Shown here: piece by piece, positions 1 through 32,989 of the stretch
Position numbering within the stretch: position 1 is the stretch's first letter
Layout of the letters: each line of letters starts with the position of its first letter
Virus record (IMG/VR): IMGVR_UViG_3300036766_002267
Location: 1-42,230 of that record
DNA: 42,230 nt
From: a virus
Reading direction: 5' to 3' (one strand)
Made by a program: the position numbers and the translations under genes
Notes under the pieces: model-generated
Told to the model about the DNA's origin: nothing
What the model saw: the letters and a program-made list of their open reading frames with translations, nothing else
Databases searched by the model: none

Positions 1-414
1 TTATGACCTACCCAACATCTCTGCCCGCTGTTCCTGCCACCCCACGGGAAACCGCCTCAGCAGATCCTCGAGCTGCAGCCCCGCCGGTTGCCGTCCACCC
101 AGGATCGCCTCGACGATGTCCGGCGCTAGTAGGGTCAGCCGGAGCACGCGTCCGACGTACGACTCGTTGATCTTCTCGGCGGCGGCGATCTCCGCGATGG
201 TCGCGTGGGTGCCGTTCTCCAGCATTTCGCGCCAGCGGAATGCTCGGGCGACCGCCTTGACCATGGCGTTGTCGATGCGTCGACAGATCGCTGGCCCTGT
301 ATCGGGTGTGCCGTCGGGTGCGAGGACAAGTTTCCGGCCACCGCGCCTGCGGATCGAAATCGGGATGCGCACGGTGACGGTTCGGCCATCGACGGTGGGA
401 TTGGGCACGGTCAT
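1..414 (-). CDS. Recombinase-associated HTH protein
   Basis: This 137-residue protein has a basic N-terminal half and a helix-turn-helix-like segment at about residues 71-105 (ATIAEIAAAEKINESYVGRV, followed by LRLTLLAPDIVEAIL). That pattern resembles the DNA-binding region of ParB/KorB-type proteins. It is the last gene of the leftward integration operon: its ATG overlaps the recombinase TAA by one base (TAATG), so translation is probably coupled. Small HTH proteins of this kind are commonly found next to serine recombinases in Rhizobiales. I infer a role in integration/excision control, for example as a directionality factor or regulator, but the sequence does not prove this. The stop codon is at the first bases of the window, so nothing downstream can be judged. 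Confidence 0.75.
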   Translation of the reverse strand: MTVPNPTVDGRTVTVRIPISIRRRGGRKLVLAPDGTPDTGPAICRRIDNAMVKAVARAFRWREMLENGTHATIAEIAAAEKINESYVGRVLRLTLLAPDIVEAILGGRQPAGLQLEDLLRRFPVGWQEQRAEMLGRS

Positions 415-1727
415 TACGCCGCCCTCCGGGGCTCTGGTTTGATGGCGCGGAGGTCCGTGACCAGATTTGCTAGTCCCTCGGTCCGCAAGCGGATGTCGAC
501 ACCGTCTGGACTGACATCAACCCGCTCCACAAGCAGATGCACGATGCGCGCCTGCTCGGCGGGGAAGAGTTCATTCCAGAGCGGATCGAGCCGCTCCAGT
601 GCGTCGCGCACGTCGGCCTCCGAGATGTCGCCCATCGATTTCGCTGCGCGCCATGTGCGCACGATAATCTCAGGGGCGCGCAGCAAGCCGCGCAATTGGT
701 CGACCACCGCGCTCTCGATCTCGGCGGCCGGAACGCGCCGCACCGTACAGGAATCGGCATCACGCTTGAGCACATCGGTCGAAACGTAGTAGCGATAGAG
801 CTTGCCGTCCTTGCGGGTGTGGGCCGGCGTCATGGCCCTGCCGGTCGGCCCGAAGATCAGGCCCTTGAGCAGGGACGGCGTTTGGGCTCGCGTGTGTGCA
901 GCGCGCTTCCGCGGGCTCTCGCGGAGAATGGCGTGCACCCGATCCCAGAGGGCGCGTTCGATAATGGCTTCGTGCTCGCCGGGATAGGCCGTGCCCTTGT
1001 GAACGGCCTCGCCCACGTAGACCCGGTTATTGAGCAGCTTGTAAACATAGCCCTTGTCGACCAGCTTGCCCCGCTTGCCGGCAACGCCTTCGGTCCTGAG
1101 CGCGCGCACCAGCGCGGTTGCTGAGCCAATCTTTATGAACCGTTCGAAGATCTTCCGAACGGTCGCAGCCTCGGCCTTGTTCACGACCAGCTTGCGGTCC
1201 TTGACGTCGTAGCCGAGCGGAACGAAGCCACCCATCCACATGCCCTTCTTGCGCGAGGCAGCGAACTTGTCGCGAATGCGCTCGCCGATGACCTCGCGCT
1301 CAAACTGCGCGAAGGAAAGCAGGATATTGAGCGTCAGCCGTCCCATCGAGGTGGTGGTATTGAACGACTGCGTGACGCTGACGAAGGTGACACTGTTGCG
1401 GTCGAACACCTCGACCAGCTTGGCGAAATCCATCAGTGCGCGGCTGAGCCGATCGATTTTGTAAACCACGATCACGTCGACCCGGCGGGCCTCGATGTCG
1501 GCCAGCAGGCGCTGCAGCGCCGGACGTTCGAGCGTTGCGCCGGAAATTCCGCCATCATCATAGCGGTCCGGCACTAGCAACCAGCCCTCAGCCTTTTGGC
1601 TGGCGATATAGGCCTCACAGGCTTCCCGTTGCGCGTCGAGCGAGTTGAACTCCTGCTCCAGTCCCTCTTCACTGGACTTGCGGGTGTACACCGCGCAGCG
1701 GAGCTTGCGGACGATCGGCTTTTTCAT
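414..1727 (-). CDS. Large serine recombinase (phage integrase)
   Basis: The 437-residue protein has the layout of a large serine recombinase. The resolvase-type catalytic domain spans about residues 8-155, with YTRKS carrying the probable nucleophile Ser18 and Arg16, then IDRLSR at 91-96 and FEREVIGERI at 142-151. A Recombinase domain follows at about 170-270. The usual zinc ribbon (about 286-330) is degenerate: LIFGPTGRAM stands where a CxxCG pair is expected and only one Cys (in DSCTVRR) remains, though the YRYY signature is kept. The protein should cut and rejoin attP/attB with a 5'-phosphoserine intermediate. It overlaps DUF2924 upstream by 4 nt (ATGA) and the HTH gene downstream by 1 nt. 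It is the only integrase seen in the window, so it is the likely integrase of this prophage. Confidence 0.93.
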   Translation of the reverse strand: MKKPIVRKLRCAVYTRKSSEEGLEQEFNSLDAQREACEAYIASQKAEGWLLVPDRYDDGGISGATLERPALQRLLADIEARRVDVIVVYKIDRLSRALMDFAKLVEVFDRNSVTFVSVTQSFNTTTSMGRLTLNILLSFAQFEREVIGERIRDKFAASRKKGMWMGGFVPLGYDVKDRKLVVNKAEAATVRKIFERFIKIGSATALVRALRTEGVAGKRGKLVDKGYVYKLLNNRVYVGEAVHKGTAYPGEHEAIIERALWDRVHAILRESPRKRAAHTRAQTPSLLKGLIFGPTGRAMTPAHTRKDGKLYRYYVSTDVLKRDADSCTVRRVPAAEIESAVVDQLRGLLRAPEIIVRTWRAAKSMGDISEADVRDALERLDPLWNELFPAEQARIVHLLVERVDVSPDGVDIRLRTEGLANLVTDLRAIKPEPRRAA

Positions 1728-2525: not shown

Positions 2526-3770
2526 ATGGCAAAGAACCTGAAGAAATTCGTCAATCCGAAGTTCACAAGAACAACCGACCTCGGTCTTCTCCGCCGGCTC
2601 CTGGAGCGCCATCAGGCCGACCTCCACGGGTTCGACCTCGCTGTATTCGGGCGGCAGCCCGACGAGGCGCGCCGTACGATTCAGAACTTCTTCGCGGGCC
2701 CCGAGGACAATTATCCCGAGGGCCTGGTCGCTGATCTCCATCGCATCGCCGAACTCGGCAATGCCAACGGGTTGCAGCTTCTTCTAGAACAAGCTCGGCG
2801 GCGTGGCGTGCAAATCACCCCTGCCAACGACGGCGATGATACTGCGGAGGCGACGCAGGACCCGAAGCACGTCGCGCTCAGAATGTTTCTGGATCAGCCG
2901 GCGGTCTTTGACGCCGCGGCCGACATGCTGAGCTATACGACCCTATCCTCCTTCACCGAATTCGCGGGCGCTGAAGAGGGGATCGAGGCGCAAATCGACG
3001 ACGAGACTCAACAAGCCTTTCAGCGTGATGCCGAGCGTCTCTTCGAGGCCGACCTTCGTGGGCGATATTGCCGGGTCGGATGGTACGACGATGACGACGA
3101 GATCAATGTTGTCGTCACCCATGGCGCGCCGCTGAAGACGACCGAAATCATCGAGGCTGGTGCCGATCGCGTGATCAGCTTCCGGGAGGCGGAGCACGCG
3201 GTTCTGTCCTATGCCGCTGCCACCGGTCGGCTGAAGGTTGGCGGCTTCGCCAAAGCGCGCCGCGCAGAGCTTGCCGAGGTTTTTGCGGCCTCGATGCTCA
3301 AGCGGCCCCGGTTCTTTGCGGCTCCCGACGCCCAGAATCTCTACACTCTTGTGCCTGTCGAGCGTGCCGGCTTCGGTTTCACCTTTAATCACGCATTCGA
3401 TCCCAGCTTCCGCCGTGTGCAGATCGTCGAGGTTCAAGCAGACCGCCTTGGTACCGACCCGAGGTCCGGCGAGACGCGTACATTCTGGTCCCATGTGACG
3501 CGCGATGGCCGTGACAATGCGCTCGCGCGATTGGGCGAGGGGACGCGCGGCATCACTTTCGGCGCCGATTGGCGGCTCAACCACATGGTCATCCGTGCAC
3601 ACATCGATGTCGGTGGATCAAAACCGGCACGAGTGACGGTGAAGCTCAAGCCGCCGGACACGGCGATGTTCAAACGCCATCGCTTCGAGGGACGCATCAT
3701 GGCGCTTTTGCGCCGCAACGGACTCGTCAATGACAGACCGCCTGGCAAGGCTGCTGTTGCGGCTGAGTGA
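2526..3770 (+). CDS. Unknown protein, first gene of a two-gene cassette
   Basis: I do not recognise this 414-residue protein. It is soluble, with no signal peptide or membrane segment visible. The N-terminal 100 residues are helical and basic to mixed (MAKNLKKFVNPKF, then LLRRLLERHQADLHGFDLAV). A middle part carries a run of acidic residues (WYDDDDE), and the C-terminal part is richer in beta-strand-like segments. It reads as a single full-length gene and overlaps the following gene by 41 nt, so the two proteins are almost certainly made together. It lies between the integrase operon and the early phage operon, a place often used for lysogeny control or accessory defence genes. No catalytic motif could be named. 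It could be an effector, a DNA-processing protein or a sensor paired with the winged-helix partner. Confidence 0.8.
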   Translation: MAKNLKKFVNPKFTRTTDLGLLRRLLERHQADLHGFDLAVFGRQPDEARRTIQNFFAGPEDNYPEGLVADLHRIAELGNANGLQLLLEQARRRGVQITPANDGDDTAEATQDPKHVALRMFLDQPAVFDAAADMLSYTTLSSFTEFAGAEEGIEAQIDDETQQAFQRDAERLFEADLRGRYCRVGWYDDDDEINVVVTHGAPLKTTEIIEAGADRVISFREAEHAVLSYAAATGRLKVGGFAKARRAELAEVFAASMLKRPRFFAAPDAQNLYTLVPVERAGFGFTFNHAFDPSFRRVQIVEVQADRLGTDPRSGETRTFWSHVTRDGRDNALARLGEGTRGITFGADWRLNHMVIRAHIDVGGSKPARVTVKLKPPDTAMFKRHRFEGRIMALLRRNGLVNDRPPGKAAVAAE

Positions 3771-8282: not shown

Positions 8283-9068
8283 ATGGATATCGTCGACCTC
8301 AACCACGGCTCGGGATTCATTTACGGCCGCGCCCCCGCGCCGCCGCCGATCGGCGAGCGCATTGACGCCCTCGTTGACGGCGCGCTCACGGCAGAGCGTG
8401 CCGTCATGCCTGCGCGCGATTATCTTGGCGCGTCCCGCATCGGCGAACCGTGCGCGCGCCGGCTCTGCTATGAGCTGATGCACGTGCCGGTCGATGGTGG
8501 CGCCGATTTTTCCGGCCGCATGCTGCGCATTTTCGAAGCCGGGCACCGCTTTGAGGAAATGACCATCCGCTGGCTCCGGCTCGCCGGGTTCGATCTGAGA
8601 ACGCACAAGCGCAATGGCGAACAGTTCGGCTTCTTGGCCGCCGCCGGCCGCTTCCGCGGCCACATCGATGGCGTCATCGTCGGCGGCCCAGACGTCGGGA
8701 TCGAGTATCCGGCCCTGTTCGAGCACAAGGCACTCAAGTCCTCCTCCTGGCAGGACGTAGTCAAGCAGGGGGTCAAAGCTTCGAAGCCGATCTACTGGGC
8801 GCAGGTTCAGGTCTACATGGCCTACCTCGCCGTTGAGCGCACGCTGTTCGTCGCGCTCGACAAGGACACGCAGGCGCTCCGCTACGAGCTCATCTCCTTC
8901 GACCCGCCGGCAGCGCAGGCGCTCTCCGACAAGGCCGTCGCCGTGATCCGTTCAGTCGAGGCTGGCGAGCTGCTGCCGCGCATCTCCGACGACGCCGGCT
9001 TCTTCATCTGCGCGTTCTGTCCTTACCGCATCCGCTGCCACGCGCTCGCACCGGGAGGCAATGCATGA
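8283..9068 (+). CDS. Cas4-like PD-(D/E)XK nuclease with Fe-S cysteines
   Basis: I choose the ATG at 8283, which has GAGG 6 nt upstream, over the TTG at 8271. The 261-residue protein shows the PD-(D/E)XK core: GHIDGVI with Asp129, EHK with Glu147 and Lys149, and Gln174 in WAQVQVY. Cysteines C57 (GEPCARRLC) and C243, C246 and C252 (ICAFCPYRIRC) match the one-plus-three spacing of Cas4/AddB-type 4Fe-4S nucleases. It should be a metal-dependent exonuclease acting on DNA ends. It overlaps the SF1 helicase by 4 nt, suggesting a helicase-nuclease pair for recombination. No CRISPR locus is present, so this is not an adaptation Cas4. Confidence 0.88.
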   Translation: MDIVDLNHGSGFIYGRAPAPPPIGERIDALVDGALTAERAVMPARDYLGASRIGEPCARRLCYELMHVPVDGGADFSGRMLRIFEAGHRFEEMTIRWLRLAGFDLRTHKRNGEQFGFLAAAGRFRGHIDGVIVGGPDVGIEYPALFEHKALKSSSWQDVVKQGVKASKPIYWAQVQVYMAYLAVERTLFVALDKDTQALRYELISFDPPAAQALSDKAVAVIRSVEAGELLPRISDDAGFFICAFCPYRIRCHALAPGGNA

Positions 9069-10369
9069 CCATCACCCTCTCCGAGAGCCAGCGCGCGGCG
9101 ATCACCACGGTCAAGGACTGGTACGAGAACCGCACGAAGGAGCAGCAGGTCTGCCGCGTGTTCGGCTATGCCGGCGCCGGGAAGAGCACGATCGTCAAGT
9201 ATGCGATCGAGGAACTGGGACTCTCGACGCCGGGAGCCGAGTCGAAGATCGGCGACGTGCTCTATGCCGCATTCACCGGCAAGGCCGCCCTGGTGATGAC
9301 GCGCAAGGGCACACCCGCGTCCACCATCCATTCCCTCATCTACCGCGTCTCGGAGGCGAGCCCACAGGAAATCGAGAAGCTCAAGGCCGAGGTTGCCGAG
9401 TTACACGCGAAACTGCCGTCCCTCGGAGTAGCCGAGCGATTGTTCGAGGAATCCCGCCTTCGGTCGCTCGAGCTGCGCCTGAAGGACGTGCACAAGCCGC
9501 GCTTCGTGCTCAATTCCGAATCCGTCCTGCGCGATGCCAAGCTGCTGGTGCTCGACGAGGTGTCCATGGTCGGCGCGGAGATGGCGCGCGATCTCCTCGC
9601 CTTCGGCAGGCCGACTCTCGTCCTGGGTGATCCCGGCCAGTTGCCACCGGTCAAGGGCGAGGGCGCCTTCGACACCGACAAGCCCGACGTGCTCTTGACC
9701 GAAGTGCACCGTCAGGCCGGCGACAGCGCCGTCATCCGCCTTGCGACCTGGGCGCGCGAGGGAAAGCCGATTCCCTACGGCGAGCACGATGAATTCGTGT
9801 GGAAAATGCGCCGGTCTGATGTCGACGCATCGGGCCTGCTCCGGGCCGGCCAGGTGATCTGCGGGCGCAACGCCACGCGCATGCAGCTCAACCTCGCCAT
9901 GAAGCAGGCCGCAGGCTTTGCTGCTTCCTATCCGACCGGGGCCGGCGAGAAGCTGATCTGCCTGCGCAACCGCAACGACATCGGCCTGGTCAACGGCATG
10001 TTCGTGACCCTCGGCGACATCGAGGAGGATGGCGACGAGATCGCCTTCAAGGCCGCGATCACCACCGAGGACGGGCACAAGGTCGGTGGCGAGACCAACG
10101 GCAAGCGCGAGCGCTTCCGCATCTATCGCGGCCACTTCGACGATCATCTGTCGCCCGATCCCGATCGGGACCGGCGCGACCATCATAAGAAGCGGACCCT
10201 GATCGAGTGCGTCTGGGGCTGGGCCATCACGTGTCACAAGTCGCAGGGCTCCCAGTTCGAGAACGTCGTGGTGTTCGACGACGGGCTCGGGCGCACGCCG
10301 CAGGATCGTGCACGCTGGCTCTACACCGCCATCACCCGCGCAGAGCGCGGGCTGGTGCTGCTCGATTGA
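9065..10369 (+). CDS. RecD/Dda-like SF1 DNA helicase
   Basis: The 434-residue protein is a superfamily 1 helicase. Walker A is GYAGAGKST at about residues 34-42, Walker B is VLDEVSMVG at about 161-169, motif III is LVLGDPGQLPPV at about 185-196, and the C-terminal motifs are ITCHKSQGSQFENVV and YTAITRAERGL near the end. The order and spacing fit RecD2/Dda-type 5'-3' helicases. It is coupled to the nuclease upstream (4-nt overlap) and lies directly before the primase, so it probably works in replication restart or recombination-dependent replication. Confidence 0.93.
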   Translation: MTITLSESQRAAITTVKDWYENRTKEQQVCRVFGYAGAGKSTIVKYAIEELGLSTPGAESKIGDVLYAAFTGKAALVMTRKGTPASTIHSLIYRVSEASPQEIEKLKAEVAELHAKLPSLGVAERLFEESRLRSLELRLKDVHKPRFVLNSESVLRDAKLLVLDEVSMVGAEMARDLLAFGRPTLVLGDPGQLPPVKGEGAFDTDKPDVLLTEVHRQAGDSAVIRLATWAREGKPIPYGEHDEFVWKMRRSDVDASGLLRAGQVICGRNATRMQLNLAMKQAAGFAASYPTGAGEKLICLRNRNDIGLVNGMFVTLGDIEEDGDEIAFKAAITTEDGHKVGGETNGKRERFRIYRGHFDDHLSPDPDRDRRDHHKKRTLIECVWGWAITCHKSQGSQFENVVVFDDGLGRTPQDRARWLYTAITRAERGLVLLD

Positions 10370-27659: not shown

Positions 27660-27743
27660 ATGGATCAGAGTCGGATCGCGATCCTCATGACGGTCCTGGC
27701 AGTCACATTCATCGCCTCCTTGCTCGTGGCAACGGCGCCATGA
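27660..27743 (+). CDS. Tiny membrane peptide (27 aa) in the late operon
   Basis: This 27-codon ORF starts 2 nt after the DUF6441 stop and has GGAG about 6 nt upstream. It ends in an ATGA overlap with the next gene. The peptide (MDQSRIAILMTVLAVTFIAS, then LLVATAP) is one hydrophobic segment with a short polar N-terminus, so it could cross the membrane once. It may be a functional membrane peptide or only a coupling element. Confidence 0.45.
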   Translation: MDQSRIAILMTVLAVTFIASLLVATAP

Positions 27744-28174
27744 CCAGCAAGCGAGAACAGGTGCTCGACGCGATCAAGACGCTGATCGCGTCCGCGCTGC
27801 CCAATGCGGAGGTCAAACGCAATCTGGCGAAGCCCGAGCGCATCCCGCCTGGCGGTCTCGTCATCCTCCGTGACGGTGATCCGGGCGAGCCGGAAGTCAT
27901 CCTTTCGCCGCTCATCTACGTCTACTCCCACCGCATCCCGATCGAGATCGCAGCGTACGAGACGTCGAGCCAAACCCGTGAGCAGGTGCTCGACGGCATG
28001 CTCGGAGCGATCGGCACAGCCGTCGTTTCCAACCGGACGCTTGGCGGCCTCTGCGACTTTGTCGAGGCCGAAGCGCCGGCAACGGAAGACGTCGAGACGA
28101 CTGGGGCGCGCGCGGGCCGCTGGGCTGACGTCGCAATCCTCGCGGTCTACGGCACGACCGACCCGCTGAACTGA
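27740..28174 (+). CDS. Tail terminator (gpU-like)
   Basis: The 144-residue protein opens with a helix (SKREQVLDAIKTLIASALPN) and continues with beta-strand segments (GGLVILRDGDPGEPEVILSP, YSHRIPIEIAAYETSSQTRE) and a VAILAVYGTTDPLN end. This alpha-beta layout and its place before the tube protein fit gpU-like tail terminators, which cap the tube. Homologues are sometimes mislabelled as acyl-CoA transferases in databases; nothing here supports that. Confidence 0.75.
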   Translation: MTSKREQVLDAIKTLIASALPNAEVKRNLAKPERIPPGGLVILRDGDPGEPEVILSPLIYVYSHRIPIEIAAYETSSQTREQVLDGMLGAIGTAVVSNRTLGGLCDFVEAEAPATEDVETTGARAGRWADVAILAVYGTTDPLN

Positions 28175-28199: not shown

Positions 28200-29141
28200 A
28201 TGGCACGCGCGCGCGGCGCCAACGCCGTCATGGCTGCGGCATTCGAGACCACCTATGGCACGGCCCCTGTGTCGGGCTTCAAGAAGCTACCGTTTGTGTC
28301 CTCGGCGCTGGGCGACGAGCAGAACCTGATCGCGAGCGATCTCCTGGGTTACGGACGTGAGCCGCTGCCGCCGAGCCGCGACGTGGTCAATAACGATGGT
28401 GACGCTGTTATTCCCGTCGATCTGAGGAATTTCGGCTATTGGCTCAAGCTCCTGATGGGTGCGCCGACCTCCGTCGACAATTCCGGCGTCATCACCCACA
28501 CCTTCGTGTCGGGCGCACTGACGCTTCCCTCGATGGCGATCGAGATCGGCATGCCGGAAGTGCCGAGCTACGGCATGAACGTCGGCGTCCGCGCCAACAC
28601 GATGAAGATTCAGCTGCAGCGGTCGGGGCTCCTCAACGCCACCATGAGCCTGATCGCGCAGGGCGAAACCAAAACGACCTCGTCGTCTGCCGGCTCGCCT
28701 AGCGAAGCCATAATTGAGCGCTTCTCCCAGTTCATGGGCGAGATCAAGCGCAACGGCACGGCACTCGGTCATATCGTCTCGGCCGAGCTCACCTACGCTA
28801 ACAATCTCGACAAGGTCGAGGTCATCCGTCCCGATGGCCGCATCGAGGACGCCGACCCCGCCATGGTCGCCGTGACCGGCAGCGTCAACGTGCGGTTCGC
28901 CGACACCGTGCTGCTCGATCAGGCGACGTCGGGCGATCCATGCGAGCTCTCATTCGGCTGGGCGATCGACGCCGACAATTCGCTGCTGTTCACGGTTCAC
29001 AGCGCTTTCCTGCCGAAACCCAAGACACCGATCCAGGGGCCGGGCGGCATCCAGGCGGCCTTCGCCTGGCAGGCCGCCAAGGATCCGACCCTTCTAAAGA
29101 CCTGCACCGCGGCGCTGATCAACGACGTCGCCGCCTACTGA
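28200..29141 (+). CDS. Phage tail tube protein
   Basis: The 313-residue protein has the Phage_tube_2-type pattern: ARGANAVMAAAFETTYGTAP, GFKKLPFVSSALGDEQNLIA, ASDLLGYGREPLPPSRDVVN, a central VPSYGMNVGVRANTMKIQLQ and a C-terminal beta-rich region. It should stack as hexamer rings to form the tail tube. Its place just before the chaperone gene and the tape measure is the expected order. Confidence 0.92.
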   Translation: MARARGANAVMAAAFETTYGTAPVSGFKKLPFVSSALGDEQNLIASDLLGYGREPLPPSRDVVNNDGDAVIPVDLRNFGYWLKLLMGAPTSVDNSGVITHTFVSGALTLPSMAIEIGMPEVPSYGMNVGVRANTMKIQLQRSGLLNATMSLIAQGETKTTSSSAGSPSEAIIERFSQFMGEIKRNGTALGHIVSAELTYANNLDKVEVIRPDGRIEDADPAMVAVTGSVNVRFADTVLLDQATSGDPCELSFGWAIDADNSLLFTVHSAFLPKPKTPIQGPGGIQAAFAWQAAKDPTLLKTCTAALINDVAAY

Positions 29142-29153
29142 CGGACCGCAAGC

Positions 29154-29564
29154 ATGACCAAGGTCAAATCCAAGCCGTCATCTGACGGCACTCCTCGTTC
29201 GAATGCCCGGATGCTCAAGCTCGCCTTCGATCGCGAGCCGATCTGGCTCGACGTGATTCCCGGAGTCCGCGTCCAGTTTCGACCGATATCGGTCGCCGCA
29301 ATCCTGATCGCGCGCACTGCTGCCGCCGACGTGCTGCGCGCCGGTGGTGACGACGTGATGGTGAAAGCGGGCGTCGCTTTCACGAATTCGCTCGCGCATT
29401 CCGGAATCGCCGCCTGGGAAGGCATCGGGGATGCTGACGGCAATCCGGTCGAGCCGACCAGGGAGACGATCGATGCGGCGCTTGAGCACTGGCCGGTGTT
29501 CGACGCGATCGATCGCCTCTATGTCGGCCCCGCTCTGATCCAGGACGCGGAAAAAAACGTCTGA
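29154..29564 (+). CDS. Tail assembly chaperone, zero-frame product (G-like)
   Basis: The 136-residue protein lies between the tube protein and the tape measure, the position of lambda gpG. It has a folded middle (LAFDREPIWLDVIPGVRVQF, then RPISVAAILIARTAA) and ends just after a run of seven A's (EKNV and stop). The run contains the slippery heptamer A AAA AAC at 29552-29558, in the right frame for -1 slippage. The zero-frame product should be the major chaperone that coats the tape measure protein. Confidence 0.82.
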   Translation: MTKVKSKPSSDGTPRSNARMLKLAFDREPIWLDVIPGVRVQFRPISVAAILIARTAAADVLRAGGDDVMVKAGVAFTNSLAHSGIAAWEGIGDADGNPVEPTRETIDAALEHWPVFDAIDRLYVGPALIQDAEKNV

Positions 29565-29866
29565 TCGCCCTCGCCGAGTGGCACTTCGGCGGGGGCGACG
29601 GTTATTGCGCCGCTTGCCCCGAAACCTGCGCCGCCTGTCCGTATCTCGAACACGCGCCGCAAACGCCGGACGGCATTACCGCCTGGGCTGTACTCCAGCG
29701 CGCGGCCGGACAGGTCCGCGCCGTCATGGGCGGCGTCTACTCGCTCGATTTCGGCGCCGTGCTGCTGCTCGCCGAGGCGATGGGCGCCCTCAACACGCTG
29801 CTCATCGAACTCCTTCCCGAGGTCGAACCGATCATCGTTCGCGCTTACGGCCGGAATAACGAATAG
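29154..29866 (+). CDS. Tail assembly chaperone, -1 frameshift fusion (G-T-like)
   Basis: Slipping back one base at A AAA AAC (29552-29558) lets translation pass the stop at 29562-29564 and run in the new frame to the TAG at 29864-29866, giving about 237 residues. The added part (about 102 residues, beginning RLIALAEWHFGGGDGY) has a compact Cys cluster (YCAACPETCAACPYL), a helical end and no start codon before an ATG far inside it. A 12-bp hairpin (29566-29577 with 29586-29597) stands 7 nt after the slip site. The TAG touches the tape-measure ATG. This mirrors lambda gpG/gpGT. Confidence 0.85.
29552..29597 (+). promoter_or_regulatory. Programmed -1 frameshift signal
   Basis: The slippery heptamer A AAA AAC (29552-29558) is in the correct zero-frame phase (gaA AAA AAC). 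After a 7-nt spacer comes a 12-bp stem (29566-29577 paired with 29586-29597, one G-U pair) with an 8-nt loop. The zero-frame stop lies in the spacer. The layout fits textbook -1 recoding signals; a pseudoknot was not looked for. Confidence 0.85.
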
Positions 29867-32800
29867 ATGAGCACGACCCAGGTTTCGATCCGTCTCGGCG
29901 TCGAGGGCAAGGCTGACGTCAAGCGCGCGTTCGAAGAAGTCGGCAAGGCCGGGCAGGATGCATTCCGCGGCGTCGCAGCCGATATGGATGCAACGGGCGC
30001 TGCCACCGATCGCCAGGCCCAGCGTCTTCAGCGCCTGGCGGAGGCCGCGCGACAGGCTGGCGCCGCCGACCAGTCGCAGCGCAGTTTCAACCAGGTCCTC
30101 GGCGTTGGCACCGCGCAGCCGAAGTCGGCGCGCGAGTCGGCCGCGGTGTTCGAGGAAACCGCCAGGGCCGCAGAAGACCTGGAAGCCAGAACCTCGGCGC
30201 TTCGTGCGCAGATCGATCCGCTCGGGACGGCGCAGAAGAAGCTCAACACCGACGTCGCGGAAGCGGGCTCGCTGTTCAAGGCAGGCGCGATCACGCAGGC
30301 GGAGCATGCGGCGGCGGTCGCGCTTGCCAACAGCCGCTACAGGGAAGCCGCCAGCGTCATCGAGAAGTATGGTGGCAGCGCGGCGCTCAGCACGAACCAG
30401 GTCCTGGTCCTGGGCTCGGCCGCGCGGCATACGGTCGACGCGCTTATTTCGGGCCAAAGCCCGATGCGGGTTCTGACCGTCGAGGGCATCAAGGCCTCTG
30501 CGGCCTTGGGCGAAGGCGGACTGGGCGGACTTCTCAGGGGCGTTTGGCAAGGCCTCACCGGCCTGATCACGCCCACGATGGCAGTGGTTGCCGGCATCGC
30601 GGCAATCGGCGCCGCGGTCGGCTACTCCTATTACCGCTACATTGAGTCGCAGAAGGAACTTGAGGTCGCGCTCGGGGGTACCGGCCGAGCCGCCGGCGCG
30701 ACCGTCGGCCAGGTTGAGCGCATCGCCGAGCAATCGGCTTCGGCCGGCAAGGTCTCGGTCGCCGCCGCGCGCGAGATGGAGGCGGCGTTCCTGCAGACCG
30801 GCAGGATCGCGGTCTCGAATTTCGACGGCCTGATCAAGGTCGCGAAGAATTACGCGGCAACCACCGGCACCGACGTTGCGACCGCCGCCAAGGAACTGGC
30901 GGGAGCGTTTGCCGACCCGATCAAGGGCGCCGACGCGCTCAATGCCAAGCTCAACTTCCTCGACGACAAGACCCGGCAGTATGTCCGCACGCTTGCCGAC
31001 CATAACGACCGCACCGCCGCGCAGCGGGTGCTGCTCGATGCGCTCAAGGGCAGCCTCATCAACGCGGCCGATGCGACCACGGCGCTTGGCCGCGCCTGGG
31101 ATTTCGTCGGGCGCATGGCGTCGAATGCCTACGACGCGCTCGGCCGGGGGATTTCGCGTGTCCTCGACGGGGCGCCGATTGAGGAGCGGCTCAAAGAGCT
31201 TCAGCAGGAACGCGCGCGCCTGCAAGCGCTGATCGCGAACCCGCCCACGCGTTTTGCCGCCCAGGCCCGCAACTTCAACACGCGGATGCTGGCGGAGGTC
31301 GATGCCGAGATTGCCAAGATCGAGGCCAAGCTGGACGCCATCCAGGTCCGCGCCAAGGAGGCAAGGGCCAACGAGCTGTCGGTTCGTGCCGGCAGCGTGG
31401 CGCGCGACCTCACGCCCGGCTTTGAAGAGCTGCAATCGCTGAAAGCGCGCGAGGCGCAGATTCGCACCGCGCTCGACGACCCGCTCGCACGCCAGAAGGT
31501 CGCCGATCTCAAGCAGGTCGAGACCGCCTATGATGCGGTGACGCGAGCGATCCTGACCTGGCTCGATCCGGCCGATAAGGCCCGCCGCCTCGACGAACTC
31601 GAAATCCAAGCTCTTGCCGCCAAGACCCCGGCCCAGAAGGCGGCAATTGCGGAAGAGCGGCGGCGCGTCGAACTCGCCGGCCAGGCGATTCCGGTCGCAA
31701 TCGCCGAAGCCGATATCACGCGTGCCGGCACCAAGGCGCGCGCCGAGGCAACGCAGGCGCTGATCGACCAGGCGCGCGTCCTCGACGTCAACACCAAGGC
31801 GACCATTGGCCTCGCCGAAGCTTGGCTGAAGGGTGCCGCCGCCGCCCAGCAGGCGGAAGCCCGCCGCAAGGCGCTCACCGAGGCGGTGCAGAACGGCGTC
31901 GACGTCGACACCCGGGCCCGCGACTTGCTCCGGGAACAGATCGCCGAGCAGGCGGCGCAATCGGCGAAGTCCGTCAACGACCTTGGCGCCGAGTCGGCCG
32001 CGCAGCGGCGGCTCAACGACGCAGTTTTTGCTGGCCGGCTCTCGACCGAACAGGCGCAGCGGCAGATGCAGGTCGAACAGGCGCTGCGCCCGCTGATCGT
32101 CGCGCAATCGCTCGCCGAGGGCGATGCAAAAAGCACGCTCGGCCGCGTCATCGATGCGCTGCGCGGCGCTTATGCGAGGCTCCATGGCGAGCAGGCCCGT
32201 GCCGCGGCCCTGCAGACTCTGGAAGGCCAGAGGAACCAGGTCGAGCTCTTACAGAAGCAGATCGATCTTGCGGGCATCGGGGAATCGCAGCGGGCGATCA
32301 TCATTGCGCAGCTGCAGGTCGAGCAGCAGCTCCGCCAGAAGGGCGTCGACCTTGCCAGCGCCGAAGGCCAGGCGATCCTCGCCAATGCCGGCAACATCGA
32401 ACGCCTCAACCAGTCGCTCGCCCGTTCGCAAGGCGCGATGCAGTCCCTGCAGGGCATGACCGACACGACCTTCAATCATTTCGCGACGCTGATTGCCGAG
32501 GGCAAGATGGACTGGAAATCGTGGGCCGATGCCGGGCGCGCGGCGCTCGCCGATATCGAGAAGGAAATTCTCAAGCTTGCGGTTCTCAATCCGCTCAAGA
32601 ACTTCATCTTCGGCACCAACCTCATGACGCTCGATAATGTCGGCGGCCTGCTCGGCAGCCTGTTCAAGGGGGGACTGAAATTCCACGAGGGCGGAGTCGT
32701 CGGCGTCGACGGAACACCGACCTTTGTGCCGGCGGGCGTGTTCCGCAACGCGCCCCGCTTTCACGATGGTGCTTTCCTTTCGCCCGACGAGGTGCCGGCG

Positions 32801-32989
32801 ATCCTGCAACGCGGCGAGCGGGTGCTGAGCCGCGACGAGGCGCGCGGCTACGGCGCACGCGGTTCAATGGCGACGCCGGTGATCAACGTCACGATCCAGA
32901 CGCCAAGCCCCTCGGCGTTCCAGGCGAGCCGCACCCAGGTGGCCGCCGACCTGGCGCGTGCGGTGCGGATGGGCATGCGCGGAAGCTGA
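29867..32989 (+). CDS. Tail tape measure protein
   Basis: The 1040-residue protein is long and mostly helical, as tape measures are, with Ala-, Gln- and Arg-rich coiled-coil stretches. A hydrophobic segment at about 230-265 (TPTMAVVAGIAAIGAAVGYS) could insert into the host membrane during DNA entry. The C-terminal part has GGVVGVDGTPTFVPAGVFRN and an AILQRGERVLSRDEARGYG segment typical of lambda-like tape measures. Its length sets tail length; using the commonly cited 1.5 angstrom per residue, the tail would be around 150 nm. The gene starts on the base after the chaperone fusion stop. Confidence 0.95.
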   Translation: MSTTQVSIRLGVEGKADVKRAFEEVGKAGQDAFRGVAADMDATGAATDRQAQRLQRLAEAARQAGAADQSQRSFNQVLGVGTAQPKSARESAAVFEETARAAEDLEARTSALRAQIDPLGTAQKKLNTDVAEAGSLFKAGAITQAEHAAAVALANSRYREAASVIEKYGGSAALSTNQVLVLGSAARHTVDALISGQSPMRVLTVEGIKASAALGEGGLGGLLRGVWQGLTGLITPTMAVVAGIAAIGAAVGYSYYRYIESQKELEVALGGTGRAAGATVGQVERIAEQSASAGKVSVAAAREMEAAFLQTGRIAVSNFDGLIKVAKNYAATTGTDVATAAKELAGAFADPIKGADALNAKLNFLDDKTRQYVRTLADHNDRTAAQRVLLDALKGSLINAADATTALGRAWDFVGRMASNAYDALGRGISRVLDGAPIEERLKELQQERARLQALIANPPTRFAAQARNFNTRMLAEVDAEIAKIEAKLDAIQVRAKEARANELSVRAGSVARDLTPGFEELQSLKAREAQIRTALDDPLARQKVADLKQVETAYDAVTRAILTWLDPADKARRLDELEIQALAAKTPAQKAAIAEERRRVELAGQAIPVAIAEADITRAGTKARAEATQALIDQARVLDVNTKATIGLAEAWLKGAAAAQQAEARRKALTEAVQNGVDVDTRARDLLREQIAEQAAQSAKSVNDLGAESAAQRRLNDAVFAGRLSTEQAQRQMQVEQALRPLIVAQSLAEGDAKSTLGRVIDALRGAYARLHGEQARAAALQTLEGQRNQVELLQKQIDLAGIGESQRAIIIAQLQVEQQLRQKGVDLASAEGQAILANAGNIERLNQSLARSQGAMQSLQGMTDTTFNHFATLIAEGKMDWKSWADAGRAALADIEKEILKLAVLNPLKNFIFGTNLMTLDNVGGLLGSLFKGGLKFHEGGVVGVDGTPTFVPAGVFRNAPRFHDGAFLSPDEVPAILQRGERVLSRDEARGYGARGSMATPVINVTIQTPSPSAFQASRTQVAADLARAVRMGMRGS

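Follow-up and report, generated by a model that had tools for sequence, protein, structure and literature searches.

A programmed −1 ribosomal frameshift at positions 29552-29558, stimulated by a stem-loop, very probably (with a probability of about 0.96) converts part of the tail assembly chaperone of this virus into a minority G-T fusion with a lambda-like role. The window, i.e., the whole stretch of DNA that was analyzed, is an IMG/VR virus record of 42,230 bases with a GC content of 65% (Table 1). The chaperone gene is located directly between the tube and tape-measure genes (Phage_tube_2, phrog_313, and TMP_2, in that order), which is the position that characterizes chaperones of the G/GT type, and a tube family gene is present upstream of the chaperone gene in 39 of 40 relatives. 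The left end of the window (positions 1 to 1727, minus strand) encodes a recombinase (phrog_14161) and an integrase (phrog_95, also invertase-like), suggesting that the phage is temperate.

Table 1. Features of the tail region of the window and the evidence for each
Feature	Position	Strand	Evidence or remark
Tail terminator	27740-28174	+	phrog_4204, E = 2.7e-24
Tail tube protein	28200-29141	+	Phage_tube_2 (PF18906), E = 2.6e-57
Zero-frame tail assembly chaperone (G-like)	29154-29564	+	phrog_313 "Tail assembly chaperone", E = 5e-8; flanked by the tube and tape-measure genes
Slippery heptamer A AAA AAC	29552-29558	+	Zero-frame phase; kept in 97 of 101 loci
Zero-frame stop TGA, just 3′ of the slip site	29562-29564	+	
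Stimulatory stem-loop, 14 bp, 6-nt spacer	29565-29598	+	Predicted fold; kept across relatives
T-like extension in the −1 frame (102 codons and TAG)	29558-29866	+	Codon-position signal; no separate start codon
Cys4 cluster C-x2-C-x3-C-x2-C in the extension	29606-29638	+	Four Cys in all 83 distinct relatives
DUF1799-like core of the T domain	29663-29863	+	hhalign versus DUF1799 loci, E = 1.7e-9
DUF7697-matched part of the T-domain core	about 29723-29851	+	PF24752, E = 7.2e-12
Tail tape-measure protein	29867-32989	+	TMP_2 (PF06791), E = 3.5e-38; phrog_24, E = 1.6e-39

The chaperone open reading frame ends with GAA AAA AAC GTC TGA, the GAA codon starting at position 29550. The heptamer therefore stands near the end of the gene in the X XXY YYZ phase, as the sequence-only reading had claimed, and it is the sole copy of AAAAAAC in the window on either strand. 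Relatives of the locus were retrieved by tblastn and by pattern searches. They include 17 loci in bacterial genomes (Pseudolabrys, Pseudorhodoplanes, Rhodoplanes, Pleomorphomonas, Paracoccus, and Sphingomonas, among others), 79 loci in viral contigs, and loci in the deposited genomes of Rhodobacter phages, Synechococcus phage Sc-Yong805-1, and Nostoc phage Nsp-JY21. Among 101 loci (79 distinct regions, window included), the heptamer was AAAAAAC in 97, GGGAAAC in 2, and AAAAAAA in 2, and it was in phase everywhere, with a possible ascertainment bias from the pattern-found relatives, which were selected with patterns from the extension itself. The heptamer was invariant across 48 close relatives. 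Counted from the first nucleotide of the slip site, the zero-frame stop was found at +13 to +187 nt across the loci (73 to 187 nt in other relatives). Since the stop shifts while the heptamer stays in place, the slip site, rather than the stop, is the conserved element. Its conservation, on which the sequence-only reading had staked its proposal, thus extends well beyond close relatives, to 101 of 101 loci. Upstream of the slip site, no conserved Shine-Dalgarno-like stimulator was detected, with such a sequence in 3 of 71 distinct upstream stretches. At a single locus (L098, around position 3001; IMGVR_UViG_2517572012_000004), an additional A in the slip run places the chaperone and the extension in one frame, probably as a homopolymer sequencing error and possibly as a natural fusion.

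The −1 frame is open from 29558 to 29863, and its TAG (29864-29866) touches the tape-measure ATG at 29867, in agreement with the 102 open codons of the initial description. Open length alone is weak evidence, because 31% of the −1 frames within genes of the window are open for at least 102 codons at 65% GC; the other two frames across 29565-29866 are open as well. An 888-aa open frame antisense to the tape-measure gene (positions 29519-32185, minus strand) can most likely be attributed to codon composition at 65% GC. Evidence for translation of the −1 frame comes from the 48 close relatives, in which diversity at codon positions 1, 2, and 3 was 0.143, 0.112, and 0.408 in the zero frame upstream of the heptamer and 0.143, 0.110, and 0.409 in the −1 frame downstream of it. 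The fast-evolving codon positions thus change frame exactly at the heptamer.

The extension could instead be a separate gene with its own start, translationally coupled to the chaperone stop. The −1 frame of the window does contain an ATG at 29726, which would afford 46 residues and is preceded by no ATG, GTG, or TTG, and some deposited genomes, such as that of Synechococcus phage Sc-Yong805-1, are annotated with a shorter second open reading frame. However, in 80 of 83 distinct relatives the −1 frame is free of ATG, GTG, and TTG over the interval that starts 15 codons 5′ of the slip site and reaches the cysteines, in support of the view of the sequence-only reading that the extension has no start of its own. 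In addition, constraint on the −1 frame starts at the heptamer, far 5′ of the internal ATG, and the slip site itself is conserved. Judged from these sequences, a separate start appears very unlikely.

RNA folding predicted a 14-bp stem (29565-29578 paired with 29585-29598) closed by a 6-nt loop and separated from the heptamer by 6 nt. A hairpin had been described previously at this place with a 7-nt spacing, which is obtained if the closing U-A pair is dropped, and with 12 bp, which is slightly low. The fold of an 89-nt stretch was moderately better than that of shuffled sequence, and because its z score was only −1.7, the case for the hairpin rests on conservation. Across relatives, 94% of the stem cells were paired, versus 43 to 56% when the partner strand was slid, and third-position diversity in the 48 close relatives was 0.13 within the hairpin versus 0.44 downstream of it. 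Only 2 pairs (5 cells) showed true compensatory changes, among them a replacement of C-G by U-A in the Rhodobacter phages. Such changes are rare because the same nucleotides code for AEWHFGGG, which hardly varies. A search of Rfam at the hairpin matched no family.

These features also bear on the origin of the fusion. Transcriptional slippage would produce it from the RNA polymerase rather than the ribosome, and the site does consist of seven consecutive A. However, this length is short for slippage by a polymerase, the relatives with GGGAAAC have no long homopolymer and fit tandem tRNA re-pairing, and the stem-loop is at the spacing expected for ribosomal frameshifting; this origin is as improbable as a separate gene. 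The idea that the two frames are one gene broken by an indel or a sequencing error can be given almost no weight: homopolymer errors are common and the extra A of L098 joins the frames, but 101 loci, drawn from numerous samples, isolates, and phage deposits, share the frame relation and the heptamer. Together, conservation, the frame switch at the heptamer, the 80 of 83 relatives devoid of a start codon, and the GGGAAAC variants weigh against slippage during transcription, an assembly error, and an independent start.

The programmed −1 ribosomal frameshift is of the classic lambda G/GT type, with a mechanism and a role that are already textbook knowledge. In lambda, the tape measure is bound by both G and GT, and the T part brings in the tube protein (PMC5009743). 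Programmed frameshifting is usual in tail assembly chaperone genes, and most phages in one study show it (PMC8601537). As in the window, the lambda genes are located between the tube and tape-measure genes, with a slip by −1 close to the 3′ end of the chaperone gene and an extension that runs into the start of the tape-measure gene. Unlike in the window, the lambda heptamer is GGGAAAG, and the T open reading frame lacks cysteine, versus four conserved cysteines in the branch of the window. Rhodobacter phages RcKemmy and RcSwan and their relatives are closer: they have a homologous extension (45 to 47% identity), the Cys4 cluster, and a hairpin at the same position, and they differ by the heptamer GGGAAAC and by a zero-frame stop about 100 nt downstream. 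RcKemmy and RcSwan were deposited with joined coding sequences (tail assembly chaperone) at this place. In view of the lambda arrangement, these joined coding sequences, and the study cited above, the mechanism is not new, and the locus provides one more clean case of a conserved tail-chaperone frameshift.

By analogy with lambda, ribosomes slipping by −1 at the heptamer under the influence of the stem-loop would turn the 136-aa chaperone (G) into a G-T fusion of ~237 aa, slippage being presumably infrequent enough for the fusion to be a minority product. Many G and few GT molecules would coat the tape-measure protein, and the T part would recruit tube subunits, here of the Phage_tube_2 family, to polymerize on the tape measure. 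In the T part, a knuckle formed by four cysteines, with Zn2+ as the most likely metal, would stand between an N-terminal helix and a DUF1799-like core.

Profile searches connect the extension to two Pfam domain families of unknown function. DUF1799 (PF08809) matched it with 14 bits (E = 0.06), below the curated cutoff of 26 bits. Profile-profile comparison with DUF1799 loci aligned the core with a probability of 96%, indicating that the C-terminal core is homologous to DUF1799. DUF7697 (PF24752) scored 45.5 bits, above its curated cutoff of 27 bits, over the last ~43 residues only, and phrog_11212 likewise matched the end of the extension. Unlike the extension, the DUF7697 and phrog_11212 models are restricted to the last part of the domain (~45 residues), and they begin within one or two codons of the internal ATG. 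Both were probably built from gene calls truncated at a start codon, and we infer that they begin late because gene callers pick the internal ATG. The second open reading frame of Sc-Yong805-1, annotated from a start some 40 codons 3′ of the slip site, exemplifies such a truncated call.

Surveys with the profiles of both families were largely free of the ascertainment bias mentioned above, because these profiles match mainly 3′ of the slip site and of the cysteine cluster. All 29 sampled DUF1799 loci above the family cutoff had an in-phase slip site (AAAAAAC, GGGAAAC, or AAAAAAG) with the homologous core in the −1 frame downstream of it and, unlike the window, no Cys4 cluster. A locus with a weaker DUF1799 match (L224) had both an in-phase slip site and the cysteines. 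For DUF7697, AAAAAAC or GGGAAAC was found in phase upstream in 17 of 18 loci. The eighteenth (L192) has a shortened A run (AAAAAC) and frames scrambled through the cysteine region, and it is visibly broken, either because the prophage copy has decayed or because the contig is poor. DUF1799 and DUF7697 may thus be largely or wholly T domains made by frameshifting. A practical rule for annotation follows: wherever either family is matched, one should look upstream for a slip site in phase, and for a joined coding sequence. In Variovorax phage VarioGold, the tail assembly chaperone (gene 12, 8677-9057) and the DUF1799 protein (gene 13, 9084-9395) precede the tape measure (PMC9658991). Judged from the listed coordinates, these two genes are probably one frameshifted gene. 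In the literature searched, DUF1799 is mentioned in a single paper and DUF7697 in none.

An AlphaFold2 model of the extension was computed from 40 window and locus sequences, with two database phage sequences left out (pLDDT, 86.6; pTM, 0.78). The predicted structure comprises an N-terminal helix, a loop bearing the cysteines, and a core made of a helix, a strand pair, and a helix. The top viral fold match was a "tape measure chaperone" of Enterobacter phage F20, with a probability of 0.97 but an E value of only 0.05, and similar names appeared lower down. A profile search of solved structures gave chance matches only (best E = 1.4, a cytochrome c), and Foldseek found nothing significant in the PDB (best E = 3.5), a second aligner giving Z scores of 3.4 or less.

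The CxxCxxxCxxC cluster reported in the initial description of the extension was confirmed from its TGC and TGT codons. At least four cysteines were present in the first 60 residues of the extension in all 83 distinct relatives, with the exact C-x2-C-x3-C-x2-C spacing in 79. The remainder of the extension contains 11 cysteines in 3,813 residues, and the structural proteins of the window contain 28 in 5,241. The sequence-only reading had called the cluster unusual for a T-like domain, which holds with respect to lambda T and the sampled DUF1799 loci, but within the branch of the window the cluster is the rule.

This pattern points to a metal-binding knuckle as the probable function of the four cysteines, most likely a zinc knuckle with a structural role that interrupts the linker. 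Binding of an iron-sulfur cluster or formation of disulfides is a less likely alternative. The compact spacing of the cysteines would suit it, but the gaps between them vary widely in divergent relatives that retain all four, as in loop-tolerant structural zinc sites, and the product acts in the reducing cytoplasm; both of these arguments are indirect. In the portions available of the tail-chaperone literature that mentions zinc or cysteine, none concerned such a cluster, and this Cys4 subfamily of T domains is possibly undescribed so far. Through metal analysis and cysteine mutants, the cluster makes the function of the T part accessible to testing.

Taken together, the comparisons would define a branch of tail chaperone extensions made only by frameshifting, distributed among phages and prophages of alphaproteobacteria and among deposited cyanophages, with a Cys4 metal knuckle where DUF1799 has a linker without the cluster, so that GT, and not G, would be a metalloprotein, DUF1799 and DUF7697 being generally frameshift-made T domains. 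We give even odds to this combined proposal. If GT is a metalloprotein, the metal state could affect tube recruitment.

A tube protein of the Phage_tube_2 family is encoded at 39 of 40 Cys4 loci. Among 26 DUF1799 loci that lack the cluster, 12 encode Phage_tube_2 and another 10 encode Phage_tail_3. Because Phage_tube_2 is also found at these 12 loci, the tube family alone was ruled out as an explanation of the cluster. One tube homolog carries a different label in the databases: WAK43744.1 of a Synechococcus phage (OP858991.1, 8326-9264; L101:225-1163) is annotated as a XerD-like tyrosine recombinase, but its 51% identity to the tail tube protein of the window indicates that this is probably a misannotation.
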